Below, piece by piece: positions 37,113-52,943 of a stretch of 64,000 nucleotides of DNA. The notes under the pieces were generated by a model. The model had not been told where the DNA came from, searched no databases, and worked only from the letters and a program-made list of their open reading frames with translations. The position numbers and the translations under genes are program-made. Every line of letters starts with the position of its first letter. The first letter of the stretch is position 1. The DNA comes from Sulfitobacter sp. THAF37 (lineage in GTDB: Bacteria > Pseudomonadota > Alphaproteobacteria > Rhodobacterales > Rhodobacteraceae): the NCBI RefSeq assembly GCF_009363555.1, contig NZ_CP045372.1, positions 1,995,501 to 2,059,500 on the forward strand, given 5' to 3'.

Positions 37113-37136
37113 GTCTGCTAAGTCATTGAAAATGCT

Positions 37137-37184
37137 TGGAGGCGAGTGGGAGAATCGAACTCCTGTACACGGATTTGCAATCCG
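37137..37184 (-). repeat. Partial tRNA-Cys 3' half: attachment-site copy 2 (A/B junction)
   Basis: 48 bases that match the 3' part of the intact tRNA-Cys at 56362-56435, including CCA, T-arm and anticodon loop. The core TGTACACGGATTTGCA is at 37164-37179. The match ends just past the anticodon stem (…ATCCG). The flank TTGAAAAT just outside the CCA end is also shared with copies 3 and 4. The T-stem GGGAG/CTCCT is close to the intact gene. Confidence 0.93.
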
Positions 37185-37412: not shown

Positions 37413-38282
37413 ATGAGCTGGAAGGTTGCAAACCTTTGCGCCGAGAGGCGCTTCGGTAGTCCCGTGCGCAAGCAGATCATCATGTTCCTGGCCGACAAGG
37501 CTAGCGACGATGGATCTGGTATCTGGTGCTCGAAGGGGACAGTCCAGCGCCATACCGAGCTAGGCGAGTCGACGGTCAAGCGGACGATCACTGAATTCTT
37601 GCGTGAGGGTATTCTGGTCGAGACCGGACGGCGCCCCTGCAAGAACGGCTATACGGTGATTTACAGGATCGTTCTGGGTTCTGTGAACGGCTTGGAAACG
37701 ATCTCCGAACCGGACGACGAACCTGAGTTTTCGAGGGGGGCCACAGCGGACGGGGTTCCGCATGGCCCTGGAACGGGGGCCGCTGCGGACGGGGTGCCGG
37801 GTCCAGAGCGGACCCCAAACCATCCTAAAACCATCCAGAAACCACCTACGCGCGCGGACACGCGCGAGGCGGAGGATCAGGATTTCGAGAAAGCATGGGC
37901 CGCCTATCCGCCGGATCGGCGTCGGAACAAGAACACCTGCCGACAACAATTCGAGCGGGCCATCAAGGACGGCACGACCGCCGAGGAATTTATCTGCGCA
38001 GTCAATGCCTATGCGACCGAGACCGAAGGCTACACCCGCTCGAAGGTATGCTTCTCCGACAACTGGTTTCGGGACAGCCGTTGGCAACGATTTGTCGAGG
38101 AGGCCCGCGACGCGCAGATTGACGCTGCCGAACTTGAGGGAAAGCACTTTCGCCAGCTTGCCGGGTGGGTCCGCGAGCGCAATTGGATGTGCCAGCACAT
38201 CTCGCGCAATCAGGCTGGTGAACTGCTGATGCGCGGTCTGGTTTCGGAACCGGAGCTTCGCCGTGCGGAGGTGGCATGGTGA
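37413..38282 (+). CDS. Helix-turn-helix replication-initiator-like protein
   Basis: A 289-residue protein. An N-terminal winged helix-turn-helix (WCSKGTVQRHTELGESTVKRTITEF) is followed by a disordered proline/glycine-rich linker (residues ~105-150). A C-terminal domain follows, with FEKAWAAYPPDRRRNKN and YTRSKVCFSDNWF, seen in phage/plasmid replication helper proteins. GGAG seven bases before the ATG sets the start. The stop overlaps the MobC start by 7 bases, so it is the first gene of the mobilization operon. Replication role is inferred from context. Confidence 0.6.
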   Translation: MSWKVANLCAERRFGSPVRKQIIMFLADKASDDGSGIWCSKGTVQRHTELGESTVKRTITEFLREGILVETGRRPCKNGYTVIYRIVLGSVNGLETISEPDDEPEFSRGATADGVPHGPGTGAAADGVPGPERTPNHPKTIQKPPTRADTREAEDQDFEKAWAAYPPDRRRNKNTCRQQFERAIKDGTTAEEFICAVNAYATETEGYTRSKVCFSDNWFRDSRWQRFVEEARDAQIDAAELEGKHFRQLAGWVRERNWMCQHISRNQAGELLMRGLVSEPELRRAEVAW

Positions 38283-38764
38283 CTTCGAACATCAAGCAGT
38301 CTGGGCAAAGAGCAAGGCGACCCGGTTCTAGGTCTTCGACCGTCGAACCGGGGCCTTGCGAGGGGCGGCAAGCCTCCCCTTCGAACCCCAACCGGACCGC
38401 GCGGGGCGCGGTCCCTTCGGAGAAGCAGGAAGCCGTATTCTTCTACTGCTCCTCCGAGGAAAAGGCGCTGATCCGGCAAGCGGCTGCGGATCGCGGGTTG
38501 TCCATGTCGGCCATGCTTCGGCAACTCGCGACCGGCGCGTCTCCGAAGCGGCGCAAGCCCGCGCCCCGTGTCGATCCCGCGCTCGTTCTGGCTGTGTCCC
38601 GCTATGGCGGCAACCTCAACCAGATCGCGCGGTGGCTCAACACGGCGGCCAGCACGGGCCGGGCCAGCGAGGTCGAGGCCCTGCGCGTGGGGGCGGCGCT
38701 GGTCGGCATCGAGCGGCGGTTGGCGGAGATCATCGCCCAGCACCGGAGGCCACCCGGATGCTGA
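38276..38764 (+). CDS. mobC: Mobilization protein MobC (relaxosome accessory)
   Basis: A 162-residue protein with a basic, disordered N-terminus. A C-terminal MobC domain follows: KQEAVFFYCSSEEKALIRQAA, then the hallmark RYGGNLNQIARWLNTAAS. MobC proteins bind oriT and help the relaxase open the DNA. Overlaps its neighbours on both sides by 7 bases, so expression is coupled with the replication-like protein and the relaxase. Confidence 0.87.
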   Translation: MVTSNIKQSGQRARRPGSRSSTVEPGPCEGRQASPSNPNRTARGAVPSEKQEAVFFYCSSEEKALIRQAAADRGLSMSAMLRQLATGASPKRRKPAPRVDPALVLAVSRYGGNLNQIARWLNTAASTGRASEVEALRVGAALVGIERRLAEIIAQHRRPPGC

Positions 38765-40302
38765 TCAAGTTCTTCCCCAACGGCAAGGGCGGCGGCGCGG
38801 GGCCGGTCGACTACCTGACCGCCCGCACGGTGCTAGCCTATGACGACAATCGCGATCTGATCCGCGAAGCCTCGGGCCAACCCATGACCGTGACGCGTGA
38901 GCCGTTGCCAGAGGTCGTGCGCGGCGATCCCCAAGGCATGATCGACCTGATCGACGCCTGCCCGCACAAGTGGACCTATCGCGCCGGTGTCGTCAGCTTC
39001 GCCCGCGAGGACGCCCCGAGCGCGGACCAGCAGCAGGAGGTGATCGACCGCTTTGAAGAGATCGCCTTCGCCGGGCTCGATGCCGACCGCTACGCCTGTC
39101 TCTGGGTGCGCCACACCCACGAGGATCGCGTCGAGCTGCATTTCTGCACGCCGCGGATGGAGCTTCACAGCGGACGCAGCCTCAACATCGCCCCACCCGG
39201 CTATGAGCGCGCCTTCGACAGCCTGCGCGACCTGATGAACAAGACCCACGGCTGGACCGACCCCATGGACGTGGAGCGCGCGGCCGAGGTCAAGCCGGTC
39301 TCGGAAGCCCCGGATCGCGCCGCCGGGCGCGACGGGCTCCATGCCTGGATCGCCGACCAGATTTCCATAGGGCTGATCGAGGACCGCGCCGGGATGCTCG
39401 CCGCCCTGACCGATGCGGGCTTCGAGGTGCCCCGCGCCGGCACGAATTACCTGACAGTCAAAGACCCTGAGACCGAAGAACGGTTTCGCCTTAGAGGAGA
39501 GATTTTCCATGAAGACTGGAGAGCCGAAGCAACGGCTGAGCGAGAAGCTAAACGCGGACATGGAGCGGATCAGGGCAGAGAACGCCGCCTCGATCGACAC
39601 ACAGTTGCAGAACTTCAGGACCGATTTGACGGTCATTGCCGAAAACGCGCTGGCTACAATCAAGACCGATACGGAAGACTACCTGCTGCGCGTGAGGAAG
39701 CACCTCATGCGGCAGAGCGCGAACGCAGCTCGACCGGAATGGAAGGCTCTGATGTGGCCGATGCTGGTGGCCTGCTGCCTGATGATCTGCACCGGGATTT
39801 CGACCTGGTCAGTCATGACATGGCTGACGCCGAACTTGAACACGATGGGGCTCAGGGTGATCGAGCGGCCGGAGGCGGTCTATCTGATCCCGCGCAGCGG
39901 CCGCGCGGCGCTGACACGCTGTTCGCTGGCAGGGGAACCCGTGGACTGTCTGACGATCCCGAAGGAGTGAGTGATGGATGGCTTGACGCCACTCGAACGC
40001 GAATTGTTGGGCTACGTCGAGCAGTTGACGGAAGCCTCGAAGGCATCCGCGCAGGAATTGACCGCCTTTGGGCAGGACAGGCGGACGGAGCTGGATGGGT
40101 TACGCGGCTCCATGATCGCTTTGCTCAGGTCGCAGCTCTCATTGGTCGAAGCCTTGAACGGCTGGATGCAGGATGGCCCCGACACCGCGCAGGCACCGTC
40201 GAAGCTGAAGGACAGCCTGTCGCTCGCGCTGGAGGCGCAGAAGCGCCTCCGGACGCGGTGACAGACGAGATCGAGGAGGACGTGCATGGCCTACGCCATT
40301 GA
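38758..40302 (+). CDS. mobA: Relaxase / mobilization nuclease
   Basis: A 514-residue relaxase, which nicks oriT and stays bound to the 5' end during transfer. An N-terminal tyrosine (PVDYLTART, Tyr19) is followed by the metal-binding triad WVRHTHEDRVELHF (His119, His121, His128) and NIAPPGYERAFDSLRDLMN. The C-terminal half (from residue ~251) is low in recognisable domains and is read through by two other genes in a second frame. The ATG at 38758 overlaps the mobC stop. Confidence 0.88.
   Translation: MLIKFFPNGKGGGAGPVDYLTARTVLAYDDNRDLIREASGQPMTVTREPLPEVVRGDPQGMIDLIDACPHKWTYRAGVVSFAREDAPSADQQQEVIDRFEEIAFAGLDADRYACLWVRHTHEDRVELHFCTPRMELHSGRSLNIAPPGYERAFDSLRDLMNKTHGWTDPMDVERAAEVKPVSEAPDRAAGRDGLHAWIADQISIGLIEDRAGMLAALTDAGFEVPRAGTNYLTVKDPETEERFRLRGEIFHEDWRAEATAEREAKRGHGADQGRERRLDRHTVAELQDRFDGHCRKRAGYNQDRYGRLPAAREEAPHAAERERSSTGMEGSDVADAGGLLPDDLHRDFDLVSHDMADAELEHDGAQGDRAAGGGLSDPAQRPRGADTLFAGRGTRGLSDDPEGVSDGWLDATRTRIVGLRRAVDGSLEGIRAGIDRLWAGQADGAGWVTRLHDRFAQVAALIGRSLERLDAGWPRHRAGTVEAEGQPVARAGGAEAPPDAVTDEIEEDVHGLRH
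39509..39970 (+). CDS. MbeB-like mobilization protein nested inside the relaxase gene
   Basis: A 153-residue frame lying wholly within the relaxase gene but in another reading frame, with AGAGGAGAG before its ATG. The N-terminal half is a charged helical/coiled-coil region (EKLNADMERIRAENAASI, then ENALATIKTDTEDYLLRVRK). A single membrane segment follows (MLVACCLMICTGISTWSVMTW). In ColE1, mbeB and mbeD are likewise embedded in mbeA. Its own ribosome site and membrane segment argue that it is a real gene rather than a chance frame. Confidence 0.7.
   Translation: MKTGEPKQRLSEKLNADMERIRAENAASIDTQLQNFRTDLTVIAENALATIKTDTEDYLLRVRKHLMRQSANAARPEWKALMWPMLVACCLMICTGISTWSVMTWLTPNLNTMGLRVIERPEAVYLIPRSGRAALTRCSLAGEPVDCLTIPKE
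39974..40261 (+). CDS. MbeD-like mobilization protein nested inside the relaxase gene
   Basis: A 95-residue helical protein starting MDGLTPLERELLGYVEQLTE, close in style to MbeD of ColE1 plasmids. GAAGGAG lies just before ATG 39974 and overlaps the end of the MbeB-like gene, three bases upstream. It ends 41 bases before the relaxase stop. Probably involved in mobilization or entry exclusion, by analogy only. Confidence 0.68.
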   Translation: MDGLTPLERELLGYVEQLTEASKASAQELTAFGQDRRTELDGLRGSMIALLRSQLSLVEALNGWMQDGPDTAQAPSKLKDSLSLALEAQKRLRTR

Positions 40303-40309
40303 GGGGCAA

Positions 40310-40500
40310 ATCCAGCTCTCCCCCGGACACGCAACACTGAACAAGCAACACGTAACACTGAACAGGGGACAGGCAGCACGCGACACGCGACACGCGACAC
40401 GCGACCGTGGCCACTCAACACCGGACAGTCAACACGCAACAGACGACACCGGACAAGCGACAGGCGACACGCAACACCGAACAAACGACGGGAGTAACCG
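40310..40500 (+). repeat. T-poor low-complexity repeat tract
   Basis: About 190 bases dominated by A, C and G in CACGCRACA-type units. ACGCGAC is repeated four times in tandem (40378-40405), and ACACGCAACACTGAACA (40327-40343) recurs as ACACGTAACACTGAACA (40348-40364). It lies after the relaxase stop and before a secreted-protein gene. A frame crosses it but would give only a low-complexity peptide. Confidence 0.7.
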
Positions 40501-40501
40501 T

Positions 40502-40912
40502 ATGATTTATCGAGCTATCTTGTTTCTGGCTTTGACTACCGATCCGGTGATGGCGGACCAGATCGAGTTGAGAAACTCCATCCAATCCGCAGAGACCGAC
40601 CGCTACGGTTGCGCAATCCGCCCGCGACCGGAACATCTGACTTTCCGGTCATTTCGAGATTCATGGCGCTCAGTGGCAGCGGACGACCTCTATAGCTTGA
40701 AGCGGCATCAGATGGCGCTGGAGGCCGGTTCTTGCGATTGCGAGGCTCTATGGCCCGACTGGGCGATCATCGAGGACGAGTATGCGGAACTGGGTTTTGC
40801 CGCCCCGACCGCCACCGACAGCCTGCACATCGCATGGTCGGCGGAAGAGTATTTCCCTGTCATTTCCGATCTTCGGGATCGGTTACGCACTCAGTGCCAG
40901 GAGCCTGAGTGA
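40502..40912 (+). CDS. Exported hypothetical protein of the mobilization block
   Basis: A 136-residue protein with a probable signal peptide (IYRAILFLALTTDPVMA) and conserved-looking cysteines (YGCAIRP, SCDCEALW, RTQCQEPE). GGGAG lies seven bases before ATG 40502, so the repeat tract upstream is not part of the protein. The stop overlaps the VirB6-like start by one base (TGATG). A role with the VirB6-like protein, such as a periplasmic or entry-exclusion partner, is suggested only by coupling. Confidence 0.65.
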   Translation: MIYRAILFLALTTDPVMADQIELRNSIQSAETDRYGCAIRPRPEHLTFRSFRDSWRSVAADDLYSLKRHQMALEAGSCDCEALWPDWAIIEDEYAELGFAAPTATDSLHIAWSAEEYFPVISDLRDRLRTQCQEPE

Positions 40913-41970
40913 TGGGTATCGTTAACTTTATCGTATCAGCCGCAGACGAGGGTCTCGAGAAAGTGGCTACCTCGCAGTTCGCGGCGGTCGCGGAGGTCTC
41001 CGGCACGATTGTTGTCGGGGCCGCGACCCTCGCAATGATCGTTTTGTTTATCAACATGGCATGGCAAATCCGGCCCATGGACGGGAAAGAGCTGCTGGTC
41101 TTGTCATTCAAGATCGCTTTGATCAACACATTCGCGTTCAATTGGGCAAATTTTAACTTCGTCAGCGGTCATATCATCGACGGCCTCGACGAACTGGCTG
41201 GGCGCTTGGTCGGCTCGGCAATCGGTGTAGACCTCGCGGGACCCAGATATTTCGCCCTTCGTTTTGACCTTCAGCTCGACAGGCTGGCGGAATACGGCAA
41301 CTCGGCCACATCGCATATGGGGGCGGTCAGCAAGGCTGTTATGGGAGTCTTCTTCATGGCTCTTCTGGCTGTAATCGGTGGCGCGGCGGGCGCTGTTCTC
41401 GTCCTGGCAAAGATGATGATGACTTTCCTGATAGGTATCGCGCCCACCATGATCCTCTGCTCGATGTTCCCGGTGACGAAGGACTATTTCCACCGATGGG
41501 TGTCTGCGCTGGCGAGTTTTGCCCTTTACCCGGTCGTGATGGCTGGCGTTTTCTCGATGGTCTTCGGCCTGGTGAGCCAGCTGGTCGGCCAGATTGGATC
41601 GCCCGATTCTGTCAAGCAGGTTGGAGCGACGCTTCCCTTTCTGGCTGTAGTCATACTTTCGCTTGTGATGGTTGTGGCGATCCCGTTCATCGTACCGATG
41701 ATCTCGGGCAACTTGCAGGCTGGTTGGGCAGCGGCAGCTGTAGGAAGCAGTGTGCGTAAGATGATACCACAGTCTCGCCCACAGCAAGCAAACAACCTAT
41801 CCTTGAACGCCGCGAGCAGTATGAACCGAAAACCGCCTGCGGGTGCGGATGCAGGCCGTACTTCAATGTCCGCAACAGGTCATCGCCTTTCAGCCGGGAC
41901 GGGTGCCAAGATGCAACGCGCCATGGATCGCGCCGAGCGGCTTGGCACACAAAATAAGACGCGATTATAG
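40912..41970 (+). CDS. VirB6/TrbL-like type IV secretion membrane protein
   Basis: A 352-residue polytopic inner-membrane protein with about six hydrophobic segments and a soluble, basic C-terminal tail (~residue 285 onward). The central block with SKAVMGVFFMALLAVIGGAA, GIAPTMILCSMFPVTKDYFH and RWVSALASFALYPVVMAGVF is typical of VirB6/TrbL. No other virB genes are found in the window, so it is an orphan of a type IV system. Confidence 0.82.
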   Translation: MGIVNFIVSAADEGLEKVATSQFAAVAEVSGTIVVGAATLAMIVLFINMAWQIRPMDGKELLVLSFKIALINTFAFNWANFNFVSGHIIDGLDELAGRLVGSAIGVDLAGPRYFALRFDLQLDRLAEYGNSATSHMGAVSKAVMGVFFMALLAVIGGAAGAVLVLAKMMMTFLIGIAPTMILCSMFPVTKDYFHRWVSALASFALYPVVMAGVFSMVFGLVSQLVGQIGSPDSVKQVGATLPFLAVVILSLVMVVAIPFIVPMISGNLQAGWAAAAVGSSVRKMIPQSRPQQANNLSLNAASSMNRKPPAGADAGRTSMSATGHRLSAGTGAKMQRAMDRAERLGTQNKTRL

Positions 41971-42033
41971 CCCGATGCTCATATTCGATTTCATCTTCCC
42001 CACAAAATCCTCGGGGGAGCGCCTCAACGGCGC

Positions 42034-42050
42034 GGGGGCAGACAGCCCCC
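42034..42050. terminator. G+C hairpin after the VirB6-like gene
   Basis: GGGGGC (42034-42039) and GCCCCC (42045-42050) with a 5-base loop. There is no T-run. Could stop the mobilization transcript or serve as a small structural site. The rest of 41971-42161 shows nothing else I can support. Confidence 0.4.
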
Positions 42051-42161
42051 ATCCTCACTTGACGGAAGAGATCGCACGACCTGCCCAGCCATGTCTTTCT
42101 ACTGCTGGAAAAGGTCAGTTGCCGCCTTTCCCTTGACTGTAGCTGCGCAAGGCTCAAAAAC

Positions 42162-42452
42162 ATGACGCTAAATAGAGATTTAGAACTTCGCCTCCGAAAA
42201 GCTATTGAGATCACGAGTGAAAAAGCCTCTTCCCGAGCGCCGATCACTCACCCAGACCAACAGCTATTATTAGATTGGGCAACTTACGGGCCAAAAGGCC
42301 CGAACATACAGCACCTTGTATGGCGGCTAGCTCTAGAGCATGACCTCCGCGTTTCGGATATTGAAGAGTTCATCGCGACCTGTCTTGCTCGCAAGTTGCA
42401 AAAGCTGGAGCGAGAAAGGTTAACTCGAGCGCACTCTCGACCCAGGCCTTAG
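42162..42452 (+). CDS. Small hypothetical protein
   Basis: A 96-residue, highly charged helical protein (ELRLRKAIEITSEKASS, HLVWRLALEHDLRVSDIEEF, LARKLQKLERERL). AAGG lies about ten bases before the ATG. It is convergent with the receiver-like gene. G+C is clearly lower than in the core. No domain recognised. Confidence 0.5.
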   Translation: MTLNRDLELRLRKAIEITSEKASSRAPITHPDQQLLLDWATYGPKGPNIQHLVWRLALEHDLRVSDIEEFIATCLARKLQKLERERLTRAHSRPRP

Positions 42453-42474: not shown

Positions 42475-44136
42475 TCAGGATGATGCCTTCCTCCGGAGCC
42501 ACTCAAACTTGTTATTACCGATACGTCCACCCTGCGCAGCCAAGGCAGATTGAGCTTCGGCAGCGTAGTGCTCCTTCAGCTCTGCAAGCCATATAAATTT
42601 CGAGCCATCAAAGGCCGTAAACTCCTCGCAACTACCCACTCTTACTGATCGTACGTCGTGTGTATCGCCGTTGGGCTCGAAGTCAGCCATGACAATATCC
42701 GACAACTTAAATGTGCTCGTTAGATGCTTAAACTCAGTTCCCTCCATAATAGGGAAGCGAAATTTCTTCGTTTGCTCAACGAGCTTAAGCTTAAGTAAAG
42801 GGAATGCGGTTCTCTCAACAAGGCGAACAGCATCACAAACAGGTTGAAGGCAAAGAAAATATTCACCTCCTTCCGCTGCTTGATTTCCTTCACCTGCTAC
42901 ATCTTGATCTTGGCCTTGAACCTTTCTCTTTAGTATTGTCCCAGATCGCAGCAGGAAGTGCCCATCAATATTCTTAGGATAGCTGTTTATTTGATCCAAG
43001 ATAGAAATTTGTGTGAAGCTATTTGGATCGATATCCAGCAGCATCAGAGGCTTCTTGCCTTCTTGGAACCCTCTAGTGTCACTATTGTTCATGCTTAGCT
43101 TGCTCTTGACCAGCTCCTTAAAGACTTCATAGTCTTGACCAAAGAAAACGGTTTCCAAGTCTTCGCCCGAAAACGAATAAGCTGAGTTATCGTTCTTATC
43201 CGAAATCTTGATGCTTTTGGGGCTGGTTAAAGTTAGGCACCTCGTCAAATCCTCCTTGTCAGTTACGGACGCCACCAACTTTGAAGAGTGCAGTGCTGCA
43301 GCGAGATCGTCCAGGACAAGCGTAGTGGTGTACTCGGCAAAGCTTTCCCGCGATGTTGGAAACTCGAGTGTGCTAGATCTTTTGTCGAGCAGATGAGTGC
43401 TAATAGCTTTGTCGAGACCGCGATTGAATCGAAAAAGATGTTCATAGGTGCGGTTCCGGACTTCGGCAACCGTCGCCATAACAGTTCGAGGCAAAATACC
43501 GTCTTGAAACTCCGCGAAGTCTTTCACCACCGCTTCAGCCAAGGCTTCCTCTTTAACGTCATTTTTTTTGAAATGCTTGATGCGCCAAACCGAAGGCCCA
43601 GCGATAACCTTCACATCAACAGAGTCTTCGATTTTGGATGCGGTAATGCCATCGATGCCCCCAAACTCCTCGACGATGGCATCGAGAACGCTGTCAGTAC
43701 CGCGGTCTGTATAAATGGCGACATACCTAAGGCGCTTACGCCCGTCGAGATCCTCTTTGAGTCTTTGTGCAAGGATATCTAGAGCGGTTCTTTCGGTCTC
43801 ATCCAGCTTCCAGTCAATGATGATCAAGTCAGCTTTATCAATAGATTTAGGGGGCTGCTTGTGTTCGGCTCTCCATTGATATGTCGAACATATAAGGCCG
43901 AGTTCAGAGAAGCCATCGACTACTGCTTCAGCGTTCACCTCAGGAATTTTTGCTTCGGCCGCAGGCTGCTCAGTTTCTTCAAGCCCAACGTCAAATCCGT
44001 CGGAATCTGGAGCGACAAGTCCTTCCCCTGCATCTGCAGTGTCTACTTTATTCTTTGGCCAAATGAGCGCATCATCGATGAAAACAGCAGCACCCAAGAA
44101 CTCCTTGGGAATGTCGAGAAAATCAAACTTAGTCAA
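42475..44136 (-). CDS. Receiver-like protein with large unknown C-terminal region
   Basis: About 553 residues. The N-terminal ~150 residues resemble a divergent response-regulator receiver: acidic pair in AAVFIDDALIW (Asp21/22), candidate phospho-acceptor Asp108 in ADLIIIDWKLD, and Thr143 in YVAIYTDRG. An unusual ~70-residue acidic insert sits between the first two elements. The remaining ~400 residues match nothing I recognise: no helix-turn-helix or nuclease motif. The start is probably TTG 44136, with GGAG seven bases upstream inside the end of the ATPase gene (8-base overlap). It is encoded with a histidine-kinase-like ATPase and a DNA methyltransferase. Confidence 0.75.
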   Translation of the reverse strand: MTKFDFLDIPKEFLGAAVFIDDALIWPKNKVDTADAGEGLVAPDSDGFDVGLEETEQPAAEAKIPEVNAEAVVDGFSELGLICSTYQWRAEHKQPPKSIDKADLIIIDWKLDETERTALDILAQRLKEDLDGRKRLRYVAIYTDRGTDSVLDAIVEEFGGIDGITASKIEDSVDVKVIAGPSVWRIKHFKKNDVKEEALAEAVVKDFAEFQDGILPRTVMATVAEVRNRTYEHLFRFNRGLDKAISTHLLDKRSSTLEFPTSRESFAEYTTTLVLDDLAAALHSSKLVASVTDKEDLTRCLTLTSPKSIKISDKNDNSAYSFSGEDLETVFFGQDYEVFKELVKSKLSMNNSDTRGFQEGKKPLMLLDIDPNSFTQISILDQINSYPKNIDGHFLLRSGTILKRKVQGQDQDVAGEGNQAAEGGEYFLCLQPVCDAVRLVERTAFPLLKLKLVEQTKKFRFPIMEGTEFKHLTSTFKLSDIVMADFEPNGDTHDVRSVRVGSCEEFTAFDGSKFIWLAELKEHYAAEAQSALAAQGGRIGNNKFEWLRRKASS

Positions 44137-47095
44137 CTTTAGTCTCCATCGGCCCGATTGCAAACACCGCACCCGCTCTGCTCTCGTCAAGCAGTGAGAT
44201 GTCGAGCAAATCTTTATTTAGAGAGGTCTTAGCGATGTAGAGACCCATCCCTTGTCCGCCAAATTTCTTTGAATAGCCAAACTCGAAAATGAGATCACGG
44301 TCCATCGCAGAAATACCAGGTCCATTGTCACGGATAATGAAGCTGTTTCCATCAGAATCTAGCACGATGCTCCGCTCACCATCTTTGCGGGATAGCCAAT
44401 GAATAGCGTTGTCAACGAGGTTGACGAAAACCGGCAAGACTACCGATGCGAAACTCTCAAGGTAATGTTCAGCTGCGGTAGAGGTCACTTCGAACCTCAC
44501 TTGATGTCGCCGGAACCTCTCCCCAAATAGGTCTTGAACAAACTCGGAAATCTGAGTTCCAGTGATCTTCGTCTTCCTCCGCCTCAAACGTCGATCTAGG
44601 GGCGTGAAAAGACTTAGGTAATTGTCCAGGTGATCGAAGCCATCTCTGATATCGTTGTATATTTCACGCAGAGCTTCGTTCTTATCAGCCCACCGTTTCA
44701 TTGCTTGGAGGGACCGTCGTACACCTCTGACGTTTCCTTCAAACTCATGCTGGACGATGCTAACGGCCATCCCTAACTGGGCGAGGTCTAGCGTCTGGGT
44801 GTAGTCTTCCTTGAGTACCTCAAGTTCGGTTTCCAGCGCTGCCACCGTGGCGTCGGAGTTGATCTCACTTTGATCGCCGGTATCTCTAATTCTCTTGAGT
44901 TGAGAACTGATAGACGCCAAGTTCACCTCGAAAACTTTGCGTGCCTCGAGCAGCTTCCCTTCTATTTCGGCATGAAACGCGTCTAGATCGTCGTCTGAAG
45001 CGGTATCAAACGAAAACTCGCTCAAAGAGATATCGACCTCGTCTTTTGTTCTTTGCAGCGCTTCCTTGGCACTTCGGAGTTGGTCGGTAACGTACTTTGA
45101 TGTCTCATCGAGCTCAGTTTTTGCGTCTTTTCGCTTCTGACTGACTGACTTTTCTGAGAACTCTTCCGCTGCCGAAAGAGCAGCGGCAAGACGCATGCGG
45201 GAATCGAGATGCACCTTTGCATCTCTCGCGATGTTACCAATTGTGGCCTCGGCTTCACGCTTCGCATTTTCAAAGTGCGGAAGAACATCTTCCCCGTAAG
45301 AGCGCTGATATTGCTCCCATTGCCTAGCAAGCGCCTTATTCAGACCAACCCCGCTGGGGCGAGATATACGGAAGCTATTTAAGTGGCTCTGAAGCTTGAG
45401 AAGTAGATCTTTCTCAATCTTTAGAATTTGATCGGCGGCAGTTGCCAGATCTTCACCTTCAACCAGGGAAGAAACACGGGCTTTTGCCGTGCTCACCTCT
45501 TCGCTGAAAGCTTTTTGATGTCCTTCATCTGCAACTCTTGAGAAATAGGCCTCAAGGTCAGCGCTGAGCTTCTTTCTCCTGGACCCAGATTGCCGTTCAC
45601 GCTTCTGACTGAGCGCGAACTCCTTCTGAAGTGCGGTTCTCTCGTTGAGAAACTCATCTGAATAGGCGCCTTCCTCTCGGAAGAAGCGCGCCGCCAACTC
45701 CTCAAAAAACGACATCAGTTGCTCGCGGAATTGCCTGTAAGCTCTATTGCTTTGGAAGCCCTCACGTCCCGCTTTTTCCTTCAGATTTCCGTTGGCATCA
45801 GCCGTAATGTCGATCGCTCCAAACATTCTGCGGTAGGAAAAGAAATAATACGACGCGCTAAGCGTTCGTCTGCGTTCAATTTCCAGGAAGTCAAAGTCTG
45901 AATTTCCGAATGGCAGGACGCGAATGCCATTTCTGTAAATGTAAAGACCGCCGAGCTTGTCCAATTTTAGCCTCAAGGGCTCCCATAAATCACTGGGAAC
46001 CCTTGTATCTCTTTTTGTTCCTTGCAAGTAAGCAAATGACAACTTGAAGGGACCGCAGTCGCGCTCAGCTCCGGAATCAAATAGAGGTATCTTGACCTCC
46101 TTATATTCCCCGCCGTAGATGGATATCTTGCCTGAGAAGTTCCCATACTTATCGAATTCCCCGGAGACCTTATGGTCAGCTAATTCAAACTCTTCTGGAG
46201 TAAAAAATTGCTGCTCCGCGATTCGATCTATCGTCTCTCCGTCGGCAAGATGATCGCGAAAGTTGGCGGTCATTGGAGTCGCGCCGGGTTTAGTGAGGCT
46301 GTTGGAGAATCCGAGCAACATCTTCTCCAATGACGTAGCTTTGAGCGTACTGTTCGCTTTTTCAGAGCGCGCATCGATATCCGCTGTTAATTCATCATCG
46401 ACAGGGTGGACGATAAAATGGGTGCCTGAGCCATCGCCTGTTAAAGTTGGCCCACTCAGTGTCTGCAGGCGCTCAATAGGTAGTGTCCACGAACGAAAAT
46501 CGTTTGCGATTGCAGACGTATAGGGGAGAAGCGCTAGGTTTGACGACAACTGCTCCGTTACTGCGACCAATTCATCACGCATGCTTTCTACGAGGTCTTT
46601 TGTCACCTCGGATATTGAGTCGACGGTCTGGAGCGGAATGACAATCTGATCCAGATCGACGCCTGGAATCTCGAACAGACCCCAGTGAATCAAGCAGACG
46701 GTTATGGACCCGCTTCCGTCATCAAGCTCGGGCTTTGTGAGGATCAGAACGATTTTTCCGGTTGTGGCAATGGCCAAGCGTCCAATGCCCTTTTCCCCCA
46801 TTGTGGGGCGATACTCCCTGCCTTTTCGGGCAGGCGGCGGAGATGAGTTTTCGAGGCGTAGCTTGCTCTCCGTGCCGAGCGTGAGCCAACGGCCTTCAAA
46901 ATCCTCTCTAGACATTCCCACACCGTCGTCCCTAATGAATAGGATATCTTGACGGCGAAAGTAATCGACCGATACTTGGTCGGCGTATGCATCATAAGCA
47001 TTCTTAAAGAGCTCATGCAGCGCGGTTGGGATGCCAGCAATTTGTTGCTTTCCCAACATATCCAACGTTCGGGCTCGTGCTCGAAACTTCGCCAT
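44129..47095 (-). CDS. Double GHKL ATPase: MORC/Hsp90-like N-terminus and histidine-kinase-like C-terminus
   Basis: A 988-residue protein with two ATPase modules. N-terminal: N-box HELFKNAYDAYA (~residues 27-38), G1 DDGVGMS (~55) and G2 GEKGIGRLA (~101), as in MutL/MORC/Hsp90-type GHKL proteins. Middle (~430-760): long charged coiled-coil with RERQSGSRRKK and LRSAKEALQRTKDEVD. C-terminal: an H-box with candidate phospho-His783 (SIVQHEFEG), N-box NLVDNAIHW (892), G1 DNGPG (923) and G2 GGQGMGLYIAKT (946). The ATG follows the methyltransferase stop by one base; its end overlaps the receiver-like gene. It likely senses a signal and signals to the receiver protein. Confidence 0.85.
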   Translation of the reverse strand: MAKFRARARTLDMLGKQQIAGIPTALHELFKNAYDAYADQVSVDYFRRQDILFIRDDGVGMSREDFEGRWLTLGTESKLRLENSSPPPARKGREYRPTMGEKGIGRLAIATTGKIVLILTKPELDDGSGSITVCLIHWGLFEIPGVDLDQIVIPLQTVDSISEVTKDLVESMRDELVAVTEQLSSNLALLPYTSAIANDFRSWTLPIERLQTLSGPTLTGDGSGTHFIVHPVDDELTADIDARSEKANSTLKATSLEKMLLGFSNSLTKPGATPMTANFRDHLADGETIDRIAEQQFFTPEEFELADHKVSGEFDKYGNFSGKISIYGGEYKEVKIPLFDSGAERDCGPFKLSFAYLQGTKRDTRVPSDLWEPLRLKLDKLGGLYIYRNGIRVLPFGNSDFDFLEIERRRTLSASYYFFSYRRMFGAIDITADANGNLKEKAGREGFQSNRAYRQFREQLMSFFEELAARFFREEGAYSDEFLNERTALQKEFALSQKRERQSGSRRKKLSADLEAYFSRVADEGHQKAFSEEVSTAKARVSSLVEGEDLATAADQILKIEKDLLLKLQSHLNSFRISRPSGVGLNKALARQWEQYQRSYGEDVLPHFENAKREAEATIGNIARDAKVHLDSRMRLAAALSAAEEFSEKSVSQKRKDAKTELDETSKYVTDQLRSAKEALQRTKDEVDISLSEFSFDTASDDDLDAFHAEIEGKLLEARKVFEVNLASISSQLKRIRDTGDQSEINSDATVAALETELEVLKEDYTQTLDLAQLGMAVSIVQHEFEGNVRGVRRSLQAMKRWADKNEALREIYNDIRDGFDHLDNYLSLFTPLDRRLRRRKTKITGTQISEFVQDLFGERFRRHQVRFEVTSTAAEHYLESFASVVLPVFVNLVDNAIHWLSRKDGERSIVLDSDGNSFIIRDNGPGISAMDRDLIFEFGYSKKFGGQGMGLYIAKTSLNKDLLDISLLDESRAGAVFAIGPMETKVD

Positions 47096-47096
47096 T

Positions 47097-48131
47097 CTAG
47101 ATTTCTTTCACAGAGATCATTAGTTGTTTTCCAAGTGTTTCAGCAAACGAAACCGGAACCGCATTACCTACCTGCCTCGCCGTTTGCGAGACCGTTCCAA
47201 GAAACATAAAGTCGTCAGGAAAACTCTGGAGAGCCGCGGCTTCACGCACCGATAGACCTCTGTTCTGATTTGGATGCCCAAATCTACCATTCGATATGGA
47301 GATACACTTGGTGGTCAATGTCTTTGCGGGAAGTGACCAGCTGAGGCGCCCGTAGGTATCAGTGTAGCCTGTCTTCTTCTTATGGCATTTAAGTAATAGG
47401 TGTTCTGGCCAATCACGCCGATCGCCGCCTTCAGGTGTGTGTCGCAATCTCTCAAGGTTAACCTCTGAGATTTGTGCCGTTTGATGGTTTGGCACTTCGT
47501 GGTGGGTGGCACCTGCTTCTAGCTCTGGATAGTGGCTAATTGCATCTCGAACAGTCGCATATTCAATTAGGCCTTCTGCATCGCCGTGAGTCTTCTTGGG
47601 AAGTTTAGCTTCACCGTTTCGCGCGGCTACGAGCACGAGCCTCCGCCGAGATTGCGGCACGCCGTAATCAACTGCATCAAGCACTCCGTGATCATATTTG
47701 TAATCAAGGCGATCCAATAAATCCGTAAATCTAAAGAAAGGGCCGCCATCTACCTTCTGCATGCCAGGTACATTCTCAAGAACTAGAAAATCTGGCTGAA
47801 AGTGCTCTACAAACCTGTGAAATTCGTCCAGCAAGACTACTCTCTTATCCGAGGTGTCCTTGTGGCGGTTCTGGTTTGAGAATGGCTGACAAGGCGCGCA
47901 GGCCGAGAATAGCAAGGGCCTTTCTATCTCACCCACTTCCTGCTGAAGCTGTTCGCAAGTTAGATCAGAGATGTTTCTCTGCAGAGCGCTGGCTTCTGGA
48001 AAATTATGCTGATACGTCTTGAGAGCGACCCCATCATAGTCGATACCGGCAAGAATTTTCATCCCAGCCTTTCGGAGACCAGCACTGGTTCCGCCGCATC
48101 CACAAAAAAAGTCAATTACCGATATTTGCAA
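47097..48131 (-). CDS. DNA (cytosine-5-)-methyltransferase
   Basis: A 344-residue C5 methyltransferase. Motif I is DFFCGCGGTSAGL (7-19), the catalytic Cys81 is in SACAPCQPFS (motif IV), ENV at 119-121 (motif VI), QSRRR at 160-164 (motif VIII), and motif X is QVGNAVPV near the end. The target-recognition region lies between about 185 and 280. It would methylate a short DNA sequence on the host. First gene of a three-gene unit with the double-GHKL ATPase and receiver-like protein; no restriction endonuclease gene is next to it. Confidence 0.95.
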   Translation of the reverse strand: MQISVIDFFCGCGGTSAGLRKAGMKILAGIDYDGVALKTYQHNFPEASALQRNISDLTCEQLQQEVGEIERPLLFSACAPCQPFSNQNRHKDTSDKRVVLLDEFHRFVEHFQPDFLVLENVPGMQKVDGGPFFRFTDLLDRLDYKYDHGVLDAVDYGVPQSRRRLVLVAARNGEAKLPKKTHGDAEGLIEYATVRDAISHYPELEAGATHHEVPNHQTAQISEVNLERLRHTPEGGDRRDWPEHLLLKCHKKKTGYTDTYGRLSWSLPAKTLTTKCISISNGRFGHPNQNRGLSVREAAALQSFPDDFMFLGTVSQTARQVGNAVPVSFAETLGKQLMISVKEI

Positions 48132-48295: not shown

Positions 48296-48580
48296 CTAGA
48301 ACTCCCGCTCGTCTACGCTCGACTTAGCTTTCAAGGCTCGCCAGAAGATGTCTGCAGCAAGGGCGGCTCCGAACCCAATCGCGCCGATAGCAACCAGACT
48401 GATGAGGGTCAGACCAGTGGAATAGTGCTCTCCTTCTAGAACTGCAATAATGGCGACAAGAGAAACTGCTAAGGTGAATAATCCACCAATTCTCATTCGA
48501 TTGGCCATCTTTCCCAAGTAGCGATCGGAACTTTGCCTGTCACTCAAAAGTGGAAGGTCCTTTCCGCTGGGCCTAATCAT
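48296..48580 (-). CDS. Small membrane protein downstream of the XRE repressor
   Basis: About 94 residues with two hydrophobic segments (IGGLFTLAVSLVAIIAVL and LTLISLVAIGAIGFGAAL). The start lies in GTGATGATG (48586, 48583 or 48580), which overlaps the last codons of the XRE gene; GAGG sits right before. The two genes are coupled. Function unknown; a membrane-anchored partner of the regulator is possible. Confidence 0.65.
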   Translation of the reverse strand: MIRPSGKDLPLLSDRQSSDRYLGKMANRMRIGGLFTLAVSLVAIIAVLEGEHYSTGLTLISLVAIGAIGFGAALAADIFWRALKAKSSVDEREF

Positions 48581-48995
48581 CATCACCTCTCATAAGTGCG
48601 TACACCGCTGTTGCTTCCTCGCTGGGAGGAGAACCTTTGCTGAAGCTCTGCTCCAACACGTAACGGAAGAATTTGGAGTAGCTCTTCATCCCGAGCGGCG
48701 GCCCCTCCGACGTAGCGAGTGCATAGGTGGCGTCGCTTGTTTTTCCAGCAAGATCAATTAGTTGTATATCTTTTGGTTGCGTTTCATCCCCGAACACCAA
48801 CCATCGGAGGTCAACGCCAAACTTTGACGAGAAATCGGCCACAACAGACAAGGGCGGTTCTCGCTTTCCAAGCTCATAGTTCTTGTATGCGCGGTCTGAG
48901 AGCTCAAGCATCGCGGCGAACTTGCTTTGCGAGTAGCCGGTTTTCTCACGCTCCTCACGCATCCTCTGTCCAACGAACGCAACTTGGCTTGCCAT
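48573..48995 (-). CDS. XRE family helix-turn-helix regulator
   Basis: A 140-residue regulator. The N-terminal Cro/CI-type helix-turn-helix is at about residues 9-65 (GQRMREEREKTGYSQSKFAA, then LSDRAYKNYELGKREP). The C-terminal half carries no peptidase motif, so it is not a LexA/CI-type autocleaving repressor. Divergent from an excisionase-like gene, an arrangement typical of integration/excision switches. Confidence 0.87.
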   Translation of the reverse strand: MASQVAFVGQRMREEREKTGYSQSKFAAMLELSDRAYKNYELGKREPPLSVVADFSSKFGVDLRWLVFGDETQPKDIQLIDLAGKTSDATYALATSEGPPLGMKSYSKFFRYVLEQSFSKGSPPSEEATAVYALMRGDDD

Positions 48996-49017
48996 GGTAT
49001 CAATTGTGCCCTACGAT

Positions 49018-49061
49018 GGTAACGAACGCGCATACTTTGCCGACTTTGCGCTAGTGTTACC
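49018..49061. promoter_or_regulatory. Candidate operator half-sites in the divergent control region
   Basis: GGTAAC (49018-49023) and GTTACC (49056-49061) form an inverted pair, 32 bases apart, between the divergent XRE and excisionase-like genes. Widely spaced inverted half-sites could bind two repressor dimers. Weak evidence without binding data. Confidence 0.3.
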
Positions 49062-49086
49062 TGAATGTGCGGAAAAGGGAAGAAAG

Positions 49087-49302
49087 ATGTCCGATTGTGC
49101 CCTTCTGTCACCGAGAGAGATGGCTGAGAAGAGCGGCTGGCCAGAGAGGCGAATCCGTTCTTTGATTGCGAGCAAGCAGATCAAACACCTCAAGATTGGT
49201 AGCACGTTCTACCTACCTGAAGATGCAATCGCCGACTTCGTGCGGCGCAACATGGTGGAGCCTGAGCAAGGGGGGAGCGCTGATGTGCCGGGCCAGGATT
49301 GA
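49087..49302 (+). CDS. Excisionase-like helix-turn-helix protein
   Basis: A 71-residue protein with a MerR/Xis-type winged helix: LLSPREMAEKSGWPERRIRS, then KQIKHLKIGSTFYLPEDAIADFV. GGGAAG precedes ATG 49087. It faces away from the XRE gene and toward the integrase gene, so it may be the excision-directionality factor or a small activator of element B. Confidence 0.72.
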   Translation: MSDCALLSPREMAEKSGWPERRIRSLIASKQIKHLKIGSTFYLPEDAIADFVRRNMVEPEQGGSADVPGQD

Positions 49303-49424: not shown

Positions 49425-49616
49425 ATGGCCGATCCTAGACCACATACGGCAGCAAAGTAGGCTGTTGCTGCATTGCTCCGCGAAGCACGCGAGGCCGGAT
49501 GGCTGCGGGCAAAATTTGAGATCAGGCCAGATGGCAGTGTGACCGTTGACGCAGGTATGACCGAGCCAGGTGTCTCTGACGAGTTTCTGAGTGGTGATCT
49601 CAGGATGGGTCGATGA
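49425..49616 (+). pseudogene. Small integrase-leader gene with in-frame stop
   Basis: GGAGG precedes an ATG at 49425, and 63 codons run in one frame to a TGA that overlaps the integrase ATG (ATGA). The frame is broken by TAG at 49458-49460, after 11 codons. The rest reads AVAALLREAREAGWLRAKFE then IRPDGSVTVDAG, the style of small proteins found just upstream of alphaproteobacterial integrases. It is either a recent nonsense mutation or a restart/readthrough arrangement. Confidence 0.6.
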
Positions 49617-50641
49617 CGCGGAAAATTCTTCCGAAATTCGTGTACCTGGATCGAGGTTATCTGCGCTTCATTCGTCGTGCTCGCGGTCAGTCGATCATGA
49701 TGAAAGAAGAATACGGAAGTCCCGAGTTCTGGGAACACTACAATATGCTGCTCCGTGGTCGCGAACCTGTCCCCGCGAAGCGCAACTTTGAAGCGTTGAT
49801 CTGGAGCTACTATGACAGCGAAGCGTTCAAGAAGCTGAAGCCGCGCACCAAGTCGGACTATCGGAAATACATCGAGCACATACGGCTGATTTGGGGGCAA
49901 AAGGACCCGGCGAAAGTCGAGCCTCATCACGTCTATGAGCTGCATCGGGCCAACTCTGAGCGGTGGCGACAAGCCAATTATCTGGTTCAGGTCATGATCG
50001 TGCTGATGAACCATGCCCGGCTTATCGGTTTCCTTCGCAAGGAGCACGGCAACCCGGCCAAAGGCATCCCGCTTTTCAAACAACAAAGTGAAGGATGGGA
50101 GCCTTGGCCCGATGATATCCGTGCCGAATTCGAAGAGGTCGCGACTTCGCGTGCCCGCCTAGTCTACGAACTGTGCATCGGTACCGGTCAGCGCATCGGT
50201 GATGTGCTTAGCATTCGGTGGAGCCACCTACAGAACGGGGCCTATGACTGCACCCAAGGTAAAACCGACAAAGAGTTGTGGATTCCACTGACAGACCGTC
50301 TCAAGGCATACTTGGCCACGGTAGAGAAAAAGGGGCTGACAGTCGTGACCGACGCATCTGGTCGGCCTGTGAGGTACCGGACCGTTGCCGAAGAAATGCG
50401 CAAGGTTAAAGGGAAGATGCAGCACCCTGAGGCCTCAAAGTACGTTACTCACGGGCCGCGCAAGAACGCTACAATCGAACTCTATCGAGCAGGCTGCGAC
50501 GACGAGATGGTCAAAGCAGTCACGGGGGCTCAGGTGTCGAGATGCTGGAAAAAATATGGTGGGAAGGTACGTCAGCGCGAGTTGGCAACGCGGGCGCAAG
50601 AAGCCAGAAACAAGATGGAACAGAACAGGGCCGGAACGTGA
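49613..50641 (+). CDS. Tyrosine integrase of element B
   Basis: A 342-residue site-specific tyrosine recombinase. The catalytic Arg194 is in CIGTGQRIGDVLSIRW, His280-x-x-Arg283 in THGPRKNAT, and the nucleophile is Tyr315 in WKKYGGK. An N-terminal SAM-like core-binding domain spans about residues 60-145. It lies 68 bases from the tRNA-Cys repeat at 50709, i.e. at the tRNA-proximal end of element B. It shares the LCxGTGQRIGDVL region and overall length with the element C integrase. Start overlaps the small leader gene (ATGA). Confidence 0.93.
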   Translation: MTRKILPKFVYLDRGYLRFIRRARGQSIMMKEEYGSPEFWEHYNMLLRGREPVPAKRNFEALIWSYYDSEAFKKLKPRTKSDYRKYIEHIRLIWGQKDPAKVEPHHVYELHRANSERWRQANYLVQVMIVLMNHARLIGFLRKEHGNPAKGIPLFKQQSEGWEPWPDDIRAEFEEVATSRARLVYELCIGTGQRIGDVLSIRWSHLQNGAYDCTQGKTDKELWIPLTDRLKAYLATVEKKGLTVVTDASGRPVRYRTVAEEMRKVKGKMQHPEASKYVTHGPRKNATIELYRAGCDDEMVKAVTGAQVSRCWKKYGGKVRQRELATRAQEARNKMEQNRAGT

Positions 50642-50655: not shown

Positions 50656-50708
50656 GTTTCAATTTTCAAGAAGGAGACAAGCAGGGTGACGCAAGTGCTT
50701 GAAAATAT

Positions 50709-50752
50709 TGGAGGCGAGTACCGGAATCGAACCGGTGTACACGGATTTGCAA
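50709..50752 (-). repeat. Partial tRNA-Cys 3' half: attachment-site copy 3 (B/C junction)
   Basis: 44 bases of the tRNA-Cys 3' end with CCA, with the core TGTACACGGATTTGCA at 50736-50751. The T-stem is ACCGG/CCGGT, different from the intact gene but the same type as copy 1. TTGAAAAT just outside is shared with copies 2 and 4. Similarity stops right after the anticodon. Confidence 0.92.
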
Positions 50753-51037: not shown

Positions 51038-51946
51038 TTAGCCTGAGGGTTCGCTCCCAAATGCTTTCGCAACCTCAGAGATAGTCAATGGGGAAAGCAA
51101 ATCCGGCGCTTTCACATGCGCCCACCTGTGACATGTCGGGCAAAGAACAACCAAATCATCGGCACGGCTCTCGCGAACGCCAGCAGCAAGGGGTTGGAGG
51201 TGGTGCGCGTCGAACATCCCGTCAGATGTATCGCTGAAACCACAAGCTTCGCAGCAGAGCGCGCCGTCATTCTTCGCCCGATTTCGGTCCTTCACCGCGC
51301 GTTTCAATCTCGGGTCGCGCTCAATTTCCTTCGAGAGTTTCCAGACCTGTATTCCCTCGGACGATTTGATGTTTAATTTAGGATATAAAGTGCCGATGAG
51401 CTTGACGCCACCGGGATCGCGAAAGCCGGAGGGTACCTGCACCTCCCATCTGCGGGAAACAGTGCGGTCCTTCAAGGCATTCCACAGTGCATGAATTTGG
51501 TCGGTGTAACGCATAACCCGGTCATATGCGTTGGCAAGGATGTTCATGTCATCGAAACCGAGTTCGTCGACCAACAACGGTTCGCCGTCAATCGCATAGA
51601 CCTCGGAAAGGACAACAGCGACCGGCCATTGTTCAAGGCGTTTTCGCAGCGGTTCACCTTTAACGAATGCTGTTGTCTCGCCGTATGCTCCAGTCGTGCG
51701 GACCAATTCCAAGGCTCGCCCTCGCAATTCTTCTGGGACATGCTTTCCGCCGCCAATCGTCACGAAATAGGGCTGCTCTTGCGCCTTTTCTGCTGTAATC
51801 CTTGCCTGAGAGTAGTGGCCTTTGTTTTTCGTCGCAGCGTCTCCTCGCGATCCGAAGCACATGACCGCTTCTTCTGATCTGCCCCAAACGGCTTTAACGC
51901 CCATCAGATCGTTTTCGCTTGGAACTACTTCGCTGAACTTGACCAT
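51038..51946 (-). CDS. HNH endonuclease, possibly modification- or phage-DNA-specific
   Basis: A 302-residue protein. The C-terminal HNH nuclease has zinc cysteines in CCEACGFSD (231-235) and CPTCHRWAH (269-277), with the catalytic AHHLQPL (His248/249) between. The N-terminal ~210 residues are of unknown type; the GGGKHVPEELRGRALELV and WPVAVVLSEVYAIDG segments could be an EVE/PUA-like DNA-reading domain, which would fit a type IV restriction enzyme, but this is a guess. Transcribed alone on the minus strand, low G+C. Confidence 0.78.
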   Translation of the reverse strand: MVKFSEVVPSENDLMGVKAVWGRSEEAVMCFGSRGDAATKNKGHYSQARITAEKAQEQPYFVTIGGGKHVPEELRGRALELVRTTGAYGETTAFVKGEPLRKRLEQWPVAVVLSEVYAIDGEPLLVDELGFDDMNILANAYDRVMRYTDQIHALWNALKDRTVSRRWEVQVPSGFRDPGGVKLIGTLYPKLNIKSSEGIQVWKLSKEIERDPRLKRAVKDRNRAKNDGALCCEACGFSDTSDGMFDAHHLQPLAAGVRESRADDLVVLCPTCHRWAHVKAPDLLSPLTISEVAKAFGSEPSG

Positions 51947-52274: not shown

Positions 52275-52943
52275 CTACGCACTGTTGAGTTCATAGCCTT
52301 TTTGCTCAAAAAAAGCCTGCAAAGCCGAACCGAATCTTTCAACTTCTGTATCCGCTATTGAGTGCATAGTTCGTATTTCACCGAAGGAGAACCTGCCACC
52401 GACCTGCACCGAAGATTCGCGGCCGTGAGATACCGCGTTTCGTCGTTCACGGAGATTATTTAGTCGGCCCTTCTCCATTACGCCAATAACGAAGTTGGGC
52501 ACACCGAGCAACTGGCAGCACTGCTCCATCTGTGAACCGTCAACGTTCTGCAGACGCACCGAGAATGGGTTGCTTGCAACACTGAACTCAAGCTCCTCAT
52601 TGAGCATAGAAAATAGCTCAATCGACTTGTTGAGTGAATTATCATAGGAGCAATCGCGAAGTGACTGTATTCGCGGATAGTGGAAAATTGCCTGCACCTC
52701 CGGGATGCAGTCTTTGACCAGTGGGGCATGCGATGTGGCCACCGCCATTGCCTCTTCAACGTAAGCGTTTACTCCCCGTTCCATCGCAGAATATATTGCT
52801 ACAAGTAGTAGCCCACGTAACGATTTGTCAGGGTCGGTGGAGGGGATGAGGTTGGGTGGTCCGCCGGGGTCCAGCCGATTAATAACTTGGAGAGTTTCCG
52901 TGAATCTGCCGCGCACCTCTAGCTGAGCGTCGGCAAAGCTCAT
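52275..52943 (-). CDS. HEPN-domain protein (MAE_28990/MAE_18760-like), predicted RNase
   Basis: A 222-residue, mostly helical protein. The HEPN catalytic motif R-x4-H is visible as RRNAVSH (Arg168, His173). The N-terminal LLLVAIYSAMERGVNAYVEEA is the usual helix preceding it in the MAE_28990-like branch. HEPN proteins with this motif are commonly metal-independent RNases used as toxins or defence effectors. Its ATG overlaps the DUF262 stop by 4 bases, so the two form one module. Confidence 0.78.
   Translation of the reverse strand: MSFADAQLEVRGRFTETLQVINRLDPGGPPNLIPSTDPDKSLRGLLLVAIYSAMERGVNAYVEEAMAVATSHAPLVKDCIPEVQAIFHYPRIQSLRDCSYDNSLNKSIELFSMLNEELEFSVASNPFSVRLQNVDGSQMEQCCQLLGVPNFVIGVMEKGRLNNLRERRNAVSHGRESSVQVGGRFSFGEIRTMHSIADTEVERFGSALQAFFEQKGYELNSA

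Follow-up and report, generated by a model that had tools for sequence, protein, structure and literature searches.

We have analyzed a stretch of 64,000 nucleotides from Sulfitobacter sp. THAF37 (contig NZ_CP045372.1, positions 1,995,501 to 2,059,500 of the forward strand; the whole stretch is hereafter called the window) and, within it, a cassette of three genes that may constitute a defense system. On the minus strand lie, in this order, genes for a C5 cytosine DNA methyltransferase, a histidine kinase with two GHKL-type ATPase domains and a receiver protein, as identified from the list of open reading frames and from Pfam matches (Table 1). A single base separates the first two genes, and the kinase and receiver genes overlap by eight bases; the original prediction, made from the sequence alone, had called the three genes tightly packed, and the coordinates and domain matches bear this out. 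Judged by its sequence, the cassette is a member of the HEF_HK/Response_reg_2 elements (PF19191/PF19192), a set of kinase, receiver and C5 methylase genes published in 2021 (Bellieny-Rabelo et al., PMC8011034). The gene set is thus already known, and the new point is the fold of the predicted effector.

Each of the three kinase domains (HATPase_c_3, HEF_HK and HATPase_c) scores above its own Pfam cut-off, and the first of these matches supports the earlier prediction of a MORC-like ATPase at one end of the protein, here the N-terminus. The predicted H-box histidine is intact, as are both ATPase sites: His783 and the ATP-site residues Glu28, Asn32, Asp56, Asn892 and Asn896 are invariant in 94 long-form kinases, the window's included. 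The catalytic cysteine of the methyltransferase is equally well kept (Pro80-Cys81-Gln82 is unchanged in 86 of 86 aligned methylases, again with the window's protein among them), and the codons that had been named for Cys81, His783 and Asp108 of the receiver were found where they had been placed. An asparagine or threonine four residues past the H-box histidine is tied to phosphatase activity in other kinases; just 7 of the 94 kinases have one at that position (His783+4). The N-terminus of the kinase also matches a model of the BbrUII/HgiDII restriction enzymes at 2.5e-18, with a score (66 bits) that is far under the cut-off of 550 bits.

The receiver gene most likely starts at the TTG codon at 44136, which is the start used by the protein database (P0001, 553 residues). 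Asp21 and Asp108 are invariant in 89 aligned receivers (window included), Asp22 is kept in 83 and replaced by Asn in the other 6, and at Thr143 only Thr and Ser occur; no position in the window's protein could be assigned to the conserved receiver lysine in two alignments. Pfam identified no output domain besides Response_reg_2, and the protein had no match in the 2023 PADLOC library, whose Detocs content was not established.

Beyond the receiver the original prediction had seen some 400 residues of unknown type. The length is correct, but an AlphaFold2 model resolves this region into two domains, one helical (about residues 196-382) and one composed of beta strands (about residues 393-553). 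The structure prediction that had been called for, followed by Foldseek comparison, gave the latter a MazF/CcdB-like fold. As a test of fold, this supports the suggestion that the C-terminal region is effector-like; its activity is a prediction. Gly399, Cys429 and Cys434 of the domain are invariant in 94 sequences, Asp435 is conserved in 97%, and Arg538 is conserved in 96% of that alignment and in 82 of 89 sequences of another. Two other assignments were considered and rejected. The window's domain matched neither PD-(D/E)XK nor HNH nucleases (PDDEXK_5 appeared in 1 of 86 members, at 0.06), and the weak matches to zf_CopZ (14 of 86 members, best 0.003) and DUF6593 (5 of 86) were taken as chance.

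Table 1. Features of the cassette and of the element that carries it (positions in the window)
Feature	Position	Strand	Evidence or remark
C5 cytosine DNA methyltransferase, TTG start, 344 amino acids	47097..48131	-	PF00145 2.9e-62
Catalytic Cys81 codon of methyltransferase	47889-47891	-	
Double-GHKL histidine kinase, ATG start, 988 amino acids	44129..47095	-	PF13589 + PF19191 + PF02518
HATPase_c_3, MutL/MORC-like N-terminal ATPase, kinase residues 24-123	46727..47026	-	PF13589 3.6e-15
HEF_HK (DHp) domain, kinase residues 773-839	44579..44779	-	PF19191 5.1e-28
His783 codon of kinase, in H-box	44747-44749	-	
HATPase_c, C-terminal kinase ATPase, residues 889-968	44192..44431	-	PF02518 4.3e-16
Receiver-effector protein, 553 amino acids	42475..44136	-	Response_reg_2 (PF19192) 1.9e-20; AlphaFold2 model pLDDT 90.7
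Receiver domain, about residues 13-190	43567..44100	-	
Phospho-acceptor Asp108 codon of receiver	43813-43815	-	
Predicted MazF/PemK/CcdB-fold domain, residues 384-553	42475..42987	-	Conserved Gly399, Cys429, Cys434, Asp435, Arg538
XRE-type regulator just upstream of cassette	48573..48995	-	HTH_3 3.2e-11
Left end repeat, 3' part of tRNA-Cys	37136..37180	+	45-nucleotide direct repeat, 84% identical copies
Mobilization genes of element	38276..41970	+	Pfam
NikA/MobC	38276-38764	+	Pfam
Relaxase-like	38356-40302	+	Pfam, below cut-off
TrbL/VirB6	40909-41970	+	Pfam
Excisionase-like HTH_17 protein of element	48994..49302	+	PF12728 1.8e-5, under Pfam cut-off
Tyrosine integrase of element	49613..50641	+	PF00589 4.7e-13
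Right end repeat, 3' part of tRNA-Cys, adjoining integrase	50708..50752	+	

Conservation of the gene unit and a shorter sister family

A first homologue search reached the close clade only (seven proteins, to which an alignment search added one), and a single-sequence scan of genome contigs gave no match. Public genomes were then queried with an alignment of 11 kinases only, leaving the neighboring genes free to vary. At least 594 stretches matched the pattern, at least 539 of them coding for a relative, and the analysis was continued with the 80 most similar. The receiver gene directly follows the kinase gene in 79 of these 80 loci, the exception (L092) stopping at a contig edge. Upstream, on the same strand and no more than 1 kb away, 65 loci have a C5 methylase; in another 7 it is found downstream, at a distance of up to 4 kb. 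The survey of gene neighborhoods proposed earlier thus found a conserved three-gene unit, with a C5 methylase in 72 of 80 loci by our rule.

By their record labels the loci are spread over many bacterial phyla, and the same trio is found on plasmids of Rhizobium, Pseudoalteromonas and Pantoea. It also occurs in four archaeal bins (L060, L071, L076 and L083, labeled Methanoperedens, Methanosarcinaceae, Methanosarcina and Euryarchaeota), all of which are metagenome-assembled, so that mis-binning is possible; the two archaeal receivers scanned match Response_reg_2 at 5e-35 and 1e-41. Viral contigs contributed 25 loci, 24 of them with a kinase frame by our rule, and among these the receiver is next to the kinase in 20 and a methylase is present in 20. 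Over 84 loci the distance correlations are 0.91 for kinase and receiver, 0.64 for kinase and methylase and 0.61 for receiver and methylase, each of them with 0 of 999 permutations as high. From these sequence distances, kinase and receiver seem to move as a pair, to which the methylase is less closely bound.

The system is sparsely distributed among the window's relatives. Among 98 genomes of relatives, Response_reg_2 turned up in one, that of the window; within the class it turned up in 5 of 385, again with this genome included, and HEF_HK is present in 14 of 398 genomes of the phylum. When those 398 genomes were scanned with a profile of the C-terminal domain, 12 strong matches resulted, 11 of them in genomes with HEF_HK; the twelfth (G467) starts 913 bases from the first base of its contig, and its kinase may be missing. 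Two weak matches of the profile (L166 and L167) were set aside because they resemble other genes by eye. In these genomes the domain thus appears to be private to the HEF_HK system.

A sister system pairs a kinase of about 720-770 amino acids with a receiver-type protein of 354-480 amino acids, and falls outside PF19191/PF19192 in the members scanned. Its members are L144, L145, L147, L148 and L149 (viral contigs) and L012, L013 and L016. When 8 of 11 sister sequences were compared by hhalign (L150 was left out of the alignment), their C-terminus joined the domain of the window's family with a probability of 93 and an E-value of 2.4e-7, their N-terminus joined the receiver (94), and the middle domain was unmatched (0.1). 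In the second protein of the sister system Cys429 is missing, but the Cys-Asp pair is retained, as is an Arg-x-Gly close to the end. Cys434-Asp435 and Arg538, common to both families, are candidates for the working site on the evidence of the alignments.

The methylase that accompanies the sister system is of the N6/N4 type in five viral-contig loci and also outside them (L016; an Allorhizobium plasmid). Because the type of methylase changes while kinase and effector stay, a role in self-marking would fit better than regulation at one sequence motif.

Two further observations concern variants. Of 87 plasmid records matching the kinase, 38 are from Campylobacter; the one examined, L012, belongs to the short form, and its C5 methylase is encoded on the other strand. 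An AAA protein of about 600 amino acids adjoins the receiver gene in L082, L094, L100, L111, L113, L114, L119 (where it is split) and L135. Seven of these loci are labeled Bacteroidota and L135 is a viral contig; the two proteins scanned match AAA_15/AAA_21. The loci may represent a four-gene variant.

Proposed mechanism and alternative explanations

On the evidence of sequence and model, the C5 methylase has its catalytic motif, both ATPase sites of the kinase are intact and its H-box histidine is present; the receiver has an intact aspartate site, and a helical domain links it to a predicted MazF/CcdB fold. We suggest that the cassette works as a restriction-like immune system carried on mobile DNA, in which a switched toxin-like domain takes the place of the restriction nuclease, a reading that we find plausible but stop short of calling probable. 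The methylase would mark host sites, and the N-terminal MORC/MutL-like ATPase would clamp or scan DNA and detect unmarked or disturbed (phage) DNA. Detection would trigger autophosphorylation at His783, and the phosphate would be handed to Asp108. The MazF/CcdB-like domain would then be freed or would dimerize, and growth would stop through the cutting of RNA or the poisoning of a target such as gyrase, with the result that infection aborts. We infer every step from sensing to toxicity.

A broader version of this proposal, about which we are more doubtful, is that any DNA methylase at hand (C5 or N6/N4) could mark self, that the MutL/MORC ATPase-kinase could read unmarked or topologically disturbed DNA, and that the phosphorelay could license a MazF/CcdB-fold toxin to abort infection, in bacteria and perhaps in archaea.

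Several observations weigh against the immune-system proposal. The best Foldseek match has an E-value of 0.046 and none is at or below 0.001, although the probability is 0.97. Comparison of the C-terminal domain with PDB sequences gave no match up to E 10, PF02452 is absent from the Pfam matches of the window's protein and of the domain, and PemK/MazF is not among the Pfam families listed (25 of 35) for 86 members of the domain. Alignment of the domain by hhalign to 15 PemK-family sequences (the proteins obtained out of 17 loci) had a probability of 0.15, and the second proteins of L014 and L017 fail to align to the domain (hhalign 0.2). The catalytic pair of MazF consists of an arginine and a threonine; no conserved Arg or Thr was seen at the strands expected for it, and because of this an RNase activity of the domain is a guess. 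As for the genomic evidence, the 80 loci were chosen as the best among at least 539, and remoter relatives may differ; 8 of the 80 lack a methylase by our rule, yet L067 and L091 show one in the gene listing. Inherited linkage through shared descent alone also yields distance correlations. The C-terminal profile found nothing in three of the 14 HEF_HK genomes (G446, G462 and G473), the ones that score lowest for HEF_HK. Finally, a gene for Vsr, HNH_2 or an OLD-like protein lies near 37 of 80 copies and could encode the true effector.

This last point bears on the claim that the system has no visible nuclease, which held in part. Pfam found no nuclease domain in the window's three cassette proteins, the kinase had no Pfam match to a DUF4263 nuclease at E-values of up to 1, and no cognate restriction endonuclease was found in the cassette by Pfam, the restriction-enzyme matches of the kinase in NCBIfam and PADLOC being confined to about residues 9-124, that is, to its N-terminal ATPase. 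Nor was one found that the copies share: when neighboring proteins of 120 amino acids or more were clustered, the largest cluster beyond the core genes and Vsr came from 8 of 95 loci, and a dedicated nuclease as common effector was therefore rejected. Against the claim as a general rule stand the neighbors of other copies: in 29 of 80 loci Vsr is no more than 6 kb away, as is an HNH_2 protein in 6 and, next to the receiver, an AAA protein in 7 (OLD-like by AAA_15/AAA_21 in the two scanned), all labeled Bacteroidota. PADLOC, run on 134 neighbors of 35 loci, listed defense-like families; there was no control set, and hence enrichment is not claimed.

Kinase and receiver might control a separate nuclease (Vsr, HNH_2 or OLD-like) or the methylase, as the authors of the 2021 paper proposed, with the C-terminal domain binding a partner and acting as no toxin. 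Besides the neighbors just listed, the over-representation of restriction-modification (R-M) genes near the pair (PMC8011034) argues for this. We nevertheless judge it unlikely: none of these three kinds of gene is found in 43 of 80 loci (with flanks partly shortened by contig ends), the window's trio has the nuclease-free content described above, and Vsr may merely repair deaminated 5-methylcytosine.

We attach a small chance to selfish maintenance, in which the cassette would be an addiction module. Upon loss of the element methylation would fade, the kinase would sense unmethylated host DNA and the toxin-like domain would kill, so that the element is kept and the host is not defended. The location of the cassette on a mobilizable tRNA-Cys element and of its relatives on plasmids and viral contigs is consistent with this, as is the selfishness of R-M systems discussed in PMC8011034, but the receiver-effector would have to outlast the methylase.

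Overlapping with the immune-system proposal is the idea that the C-terminal domain acts as CcdB does, its target being gyrase or another protein instead of RNA. It, too, seems to us rather improbable: the short sister family shows no EWLR end, and MazF rows are more numerous than CcdB rows in the Foldseek output, a difference that may mirror the number of MazF structures solved. An ordinary two-component regulator, in which a nucleic-acid-binding effector would alter transcription upon DNA damage or a change in methylation state with no role in defense, would suit the intact receiver and kinase and the starting point of the 2021 paper, namely such genes activated in Pectobacterium on potato tubers (PMC8011034), but is very unlikely given the lack of any other Pfam output domain in the window's receiver protein, the patchy spread on mobile DNA and the methylase kept alongside.

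If the receiver protein does end in a MazF/CcdB-fold toxin, the cassette would join DNA self-marking, two-component signaling and toxins, themes that are usually separate, and would wire the reading of self and non-self DNA through a two-component relay to an effector of the toxin-antitoxin type. It would also explain the absence of a shared nuclease and suggest a sensor role for bacterial paraMORC-like ATPases. The cassette is real, conserved and worth testing.

The carrying element and its surroundings

The unit is located on mobile DNA. Besides the two end repeats of Table 1, the 45-base tRNA-Cys repeat occurs at 26105-26149 and 56361-56405 (0.00 copies expected at 3 or fewer mismatches), and the last copy falls in an intact tRNA-Cys gene (56362-56435). 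From these repeats, together with the integrase and mobilization genes, we take the cassette to be cargo of a 13.6-kb element, bounded by the repeats at 37136 and 50708, within a tandem array at the tRNA-Cys gene. The XRE-type regulator is 31% identical to an XRE protein encoded upstream of the methylase in the cassette of the closest relative (L049:6126-6539) and is a possible controller of the cassette. A small antitoxin gene, as expected beside a toxin of the MazF type, might lie downstream of the receiver gene, where the nearest frames of 90 amino acids or more are 42162-42452 (plus strand, 96 amino acids, no Pfam match at 0.01) and 41687-42247 (minus strand, 186 amino acids). Ten imperfect copies of a 24-nucleotide sequence, spaced by 14-21 bases, are found at 40326-40489, inside the frame 40286-40912.

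The next element contains a gene for an HNH protein (51038-51946) that weakly resembles a type IV restriction enzyme model (8.8e-6) and, at 52275-53986, a DUF262 (GmrSD_N) gene that overlaps one for a RiboL-PSP HEPN protein. In PADLOC the DUF262 protein is matched to NsnA (1.8e-68) and PD-T4-2_A (1.2e-52), and the pair is likely, from these matches, to be a second defense system. Neither the HNH gene nor the pair was counted as part of the cassette, both lying beyond the end repeat at 50708. As for BREX partners such as PglZ and BrxC, PADLOC, the only source consulted for this, gave no BREX names among its matches for five of the six proteins scanned; the sixth is the methylase, for which 25 of 60 families were listed. 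To the eye, a minus-strand frame at 54319-55410 looks similar to the carrying element's integrase.

Relation to known systems

The paper that described the HEF_HK family reported, in the portions accessible to us, that the two genes are linked in 91.6% across 644 regions, that C5 methylases are often upstream, that Vsr genes occur nearby in 20 genera and that the three-domain kinase is the main architecture (174 of 222); it proposed a two-component-like system tied to R-M, with no function shown there for either end of the signal chain (PMC8011034). The window's cassette agrees in its group 1 kinase (HATPase_c_3, HEF_HK and HATPase_c), its adjacent receiver gene, its neighboring C5 methylase and its conserved H-box histidine (94 of 94) and receiver aspartate (89 of 89). 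It differs in that Response_reg_2 proteins were reported in that text without any other known domain and with no fold for the rest of the protein, whereas here a MazF/CcdB fold is modeled; our survey also adds the four archaeal bins, the starting search of that paper having been restricted to Bacteria, and the short sister family. In the open-licence literature we found no published description of a MazF/CcdB-like fold at the end of the receiver protein and, judging by titles and the beginnings of abstracts, nothing directly on the subject beyond that paper and Iyer et al. (2008).

In the part available to us, PMC2292703 (Iyer et al. 2008) proposes that MORCs and paraMORCs in R-M operons loop DNA. 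An example of a protein headed by a GHKL domain that acts against phage is VcSduA, a Shedu protein with a GHKL ATPase that was formerly classed as paraMORC3 architecture and is described in the accessible text as protecting against phage (Adams et al. 2025, PMC12137116). VcSduA shares with the window's kinase an N-terminal GHKL ATPase but has a DUF4263 nuclease, whereas the kinase has an H-box and a second ATPase and no nuclease domain was found in it by Pfam. With type II R-M systems the cassette shares a C5 methylase in the operon and, with the model of BbrUII/HgiDII-type restriction enzymes, a similar N-terminal ATPase; no cognate restriction nuclease was found in it. With the MazF/PemK/Kid and CcdB toxins it would share the modeled fold of the C-terminal domain, but here the domain is under receiver control, no sequence similarity was detected and the catalytic residues are not recognized.

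In Detocs the receiver switches a fused effector. The cassette would work like Detocs, a three-gene defensive two-component system against phage (PMC11249213), combined with a marking of DNA of the R-M kind, except that the best-described Detocs has an ATP-cleaving PNP domain, of which Pfam found none in the three cassette proteins, whereas the unit described here includes a methylase and has an effector predicted to adopt the MazF/CcdB fold.

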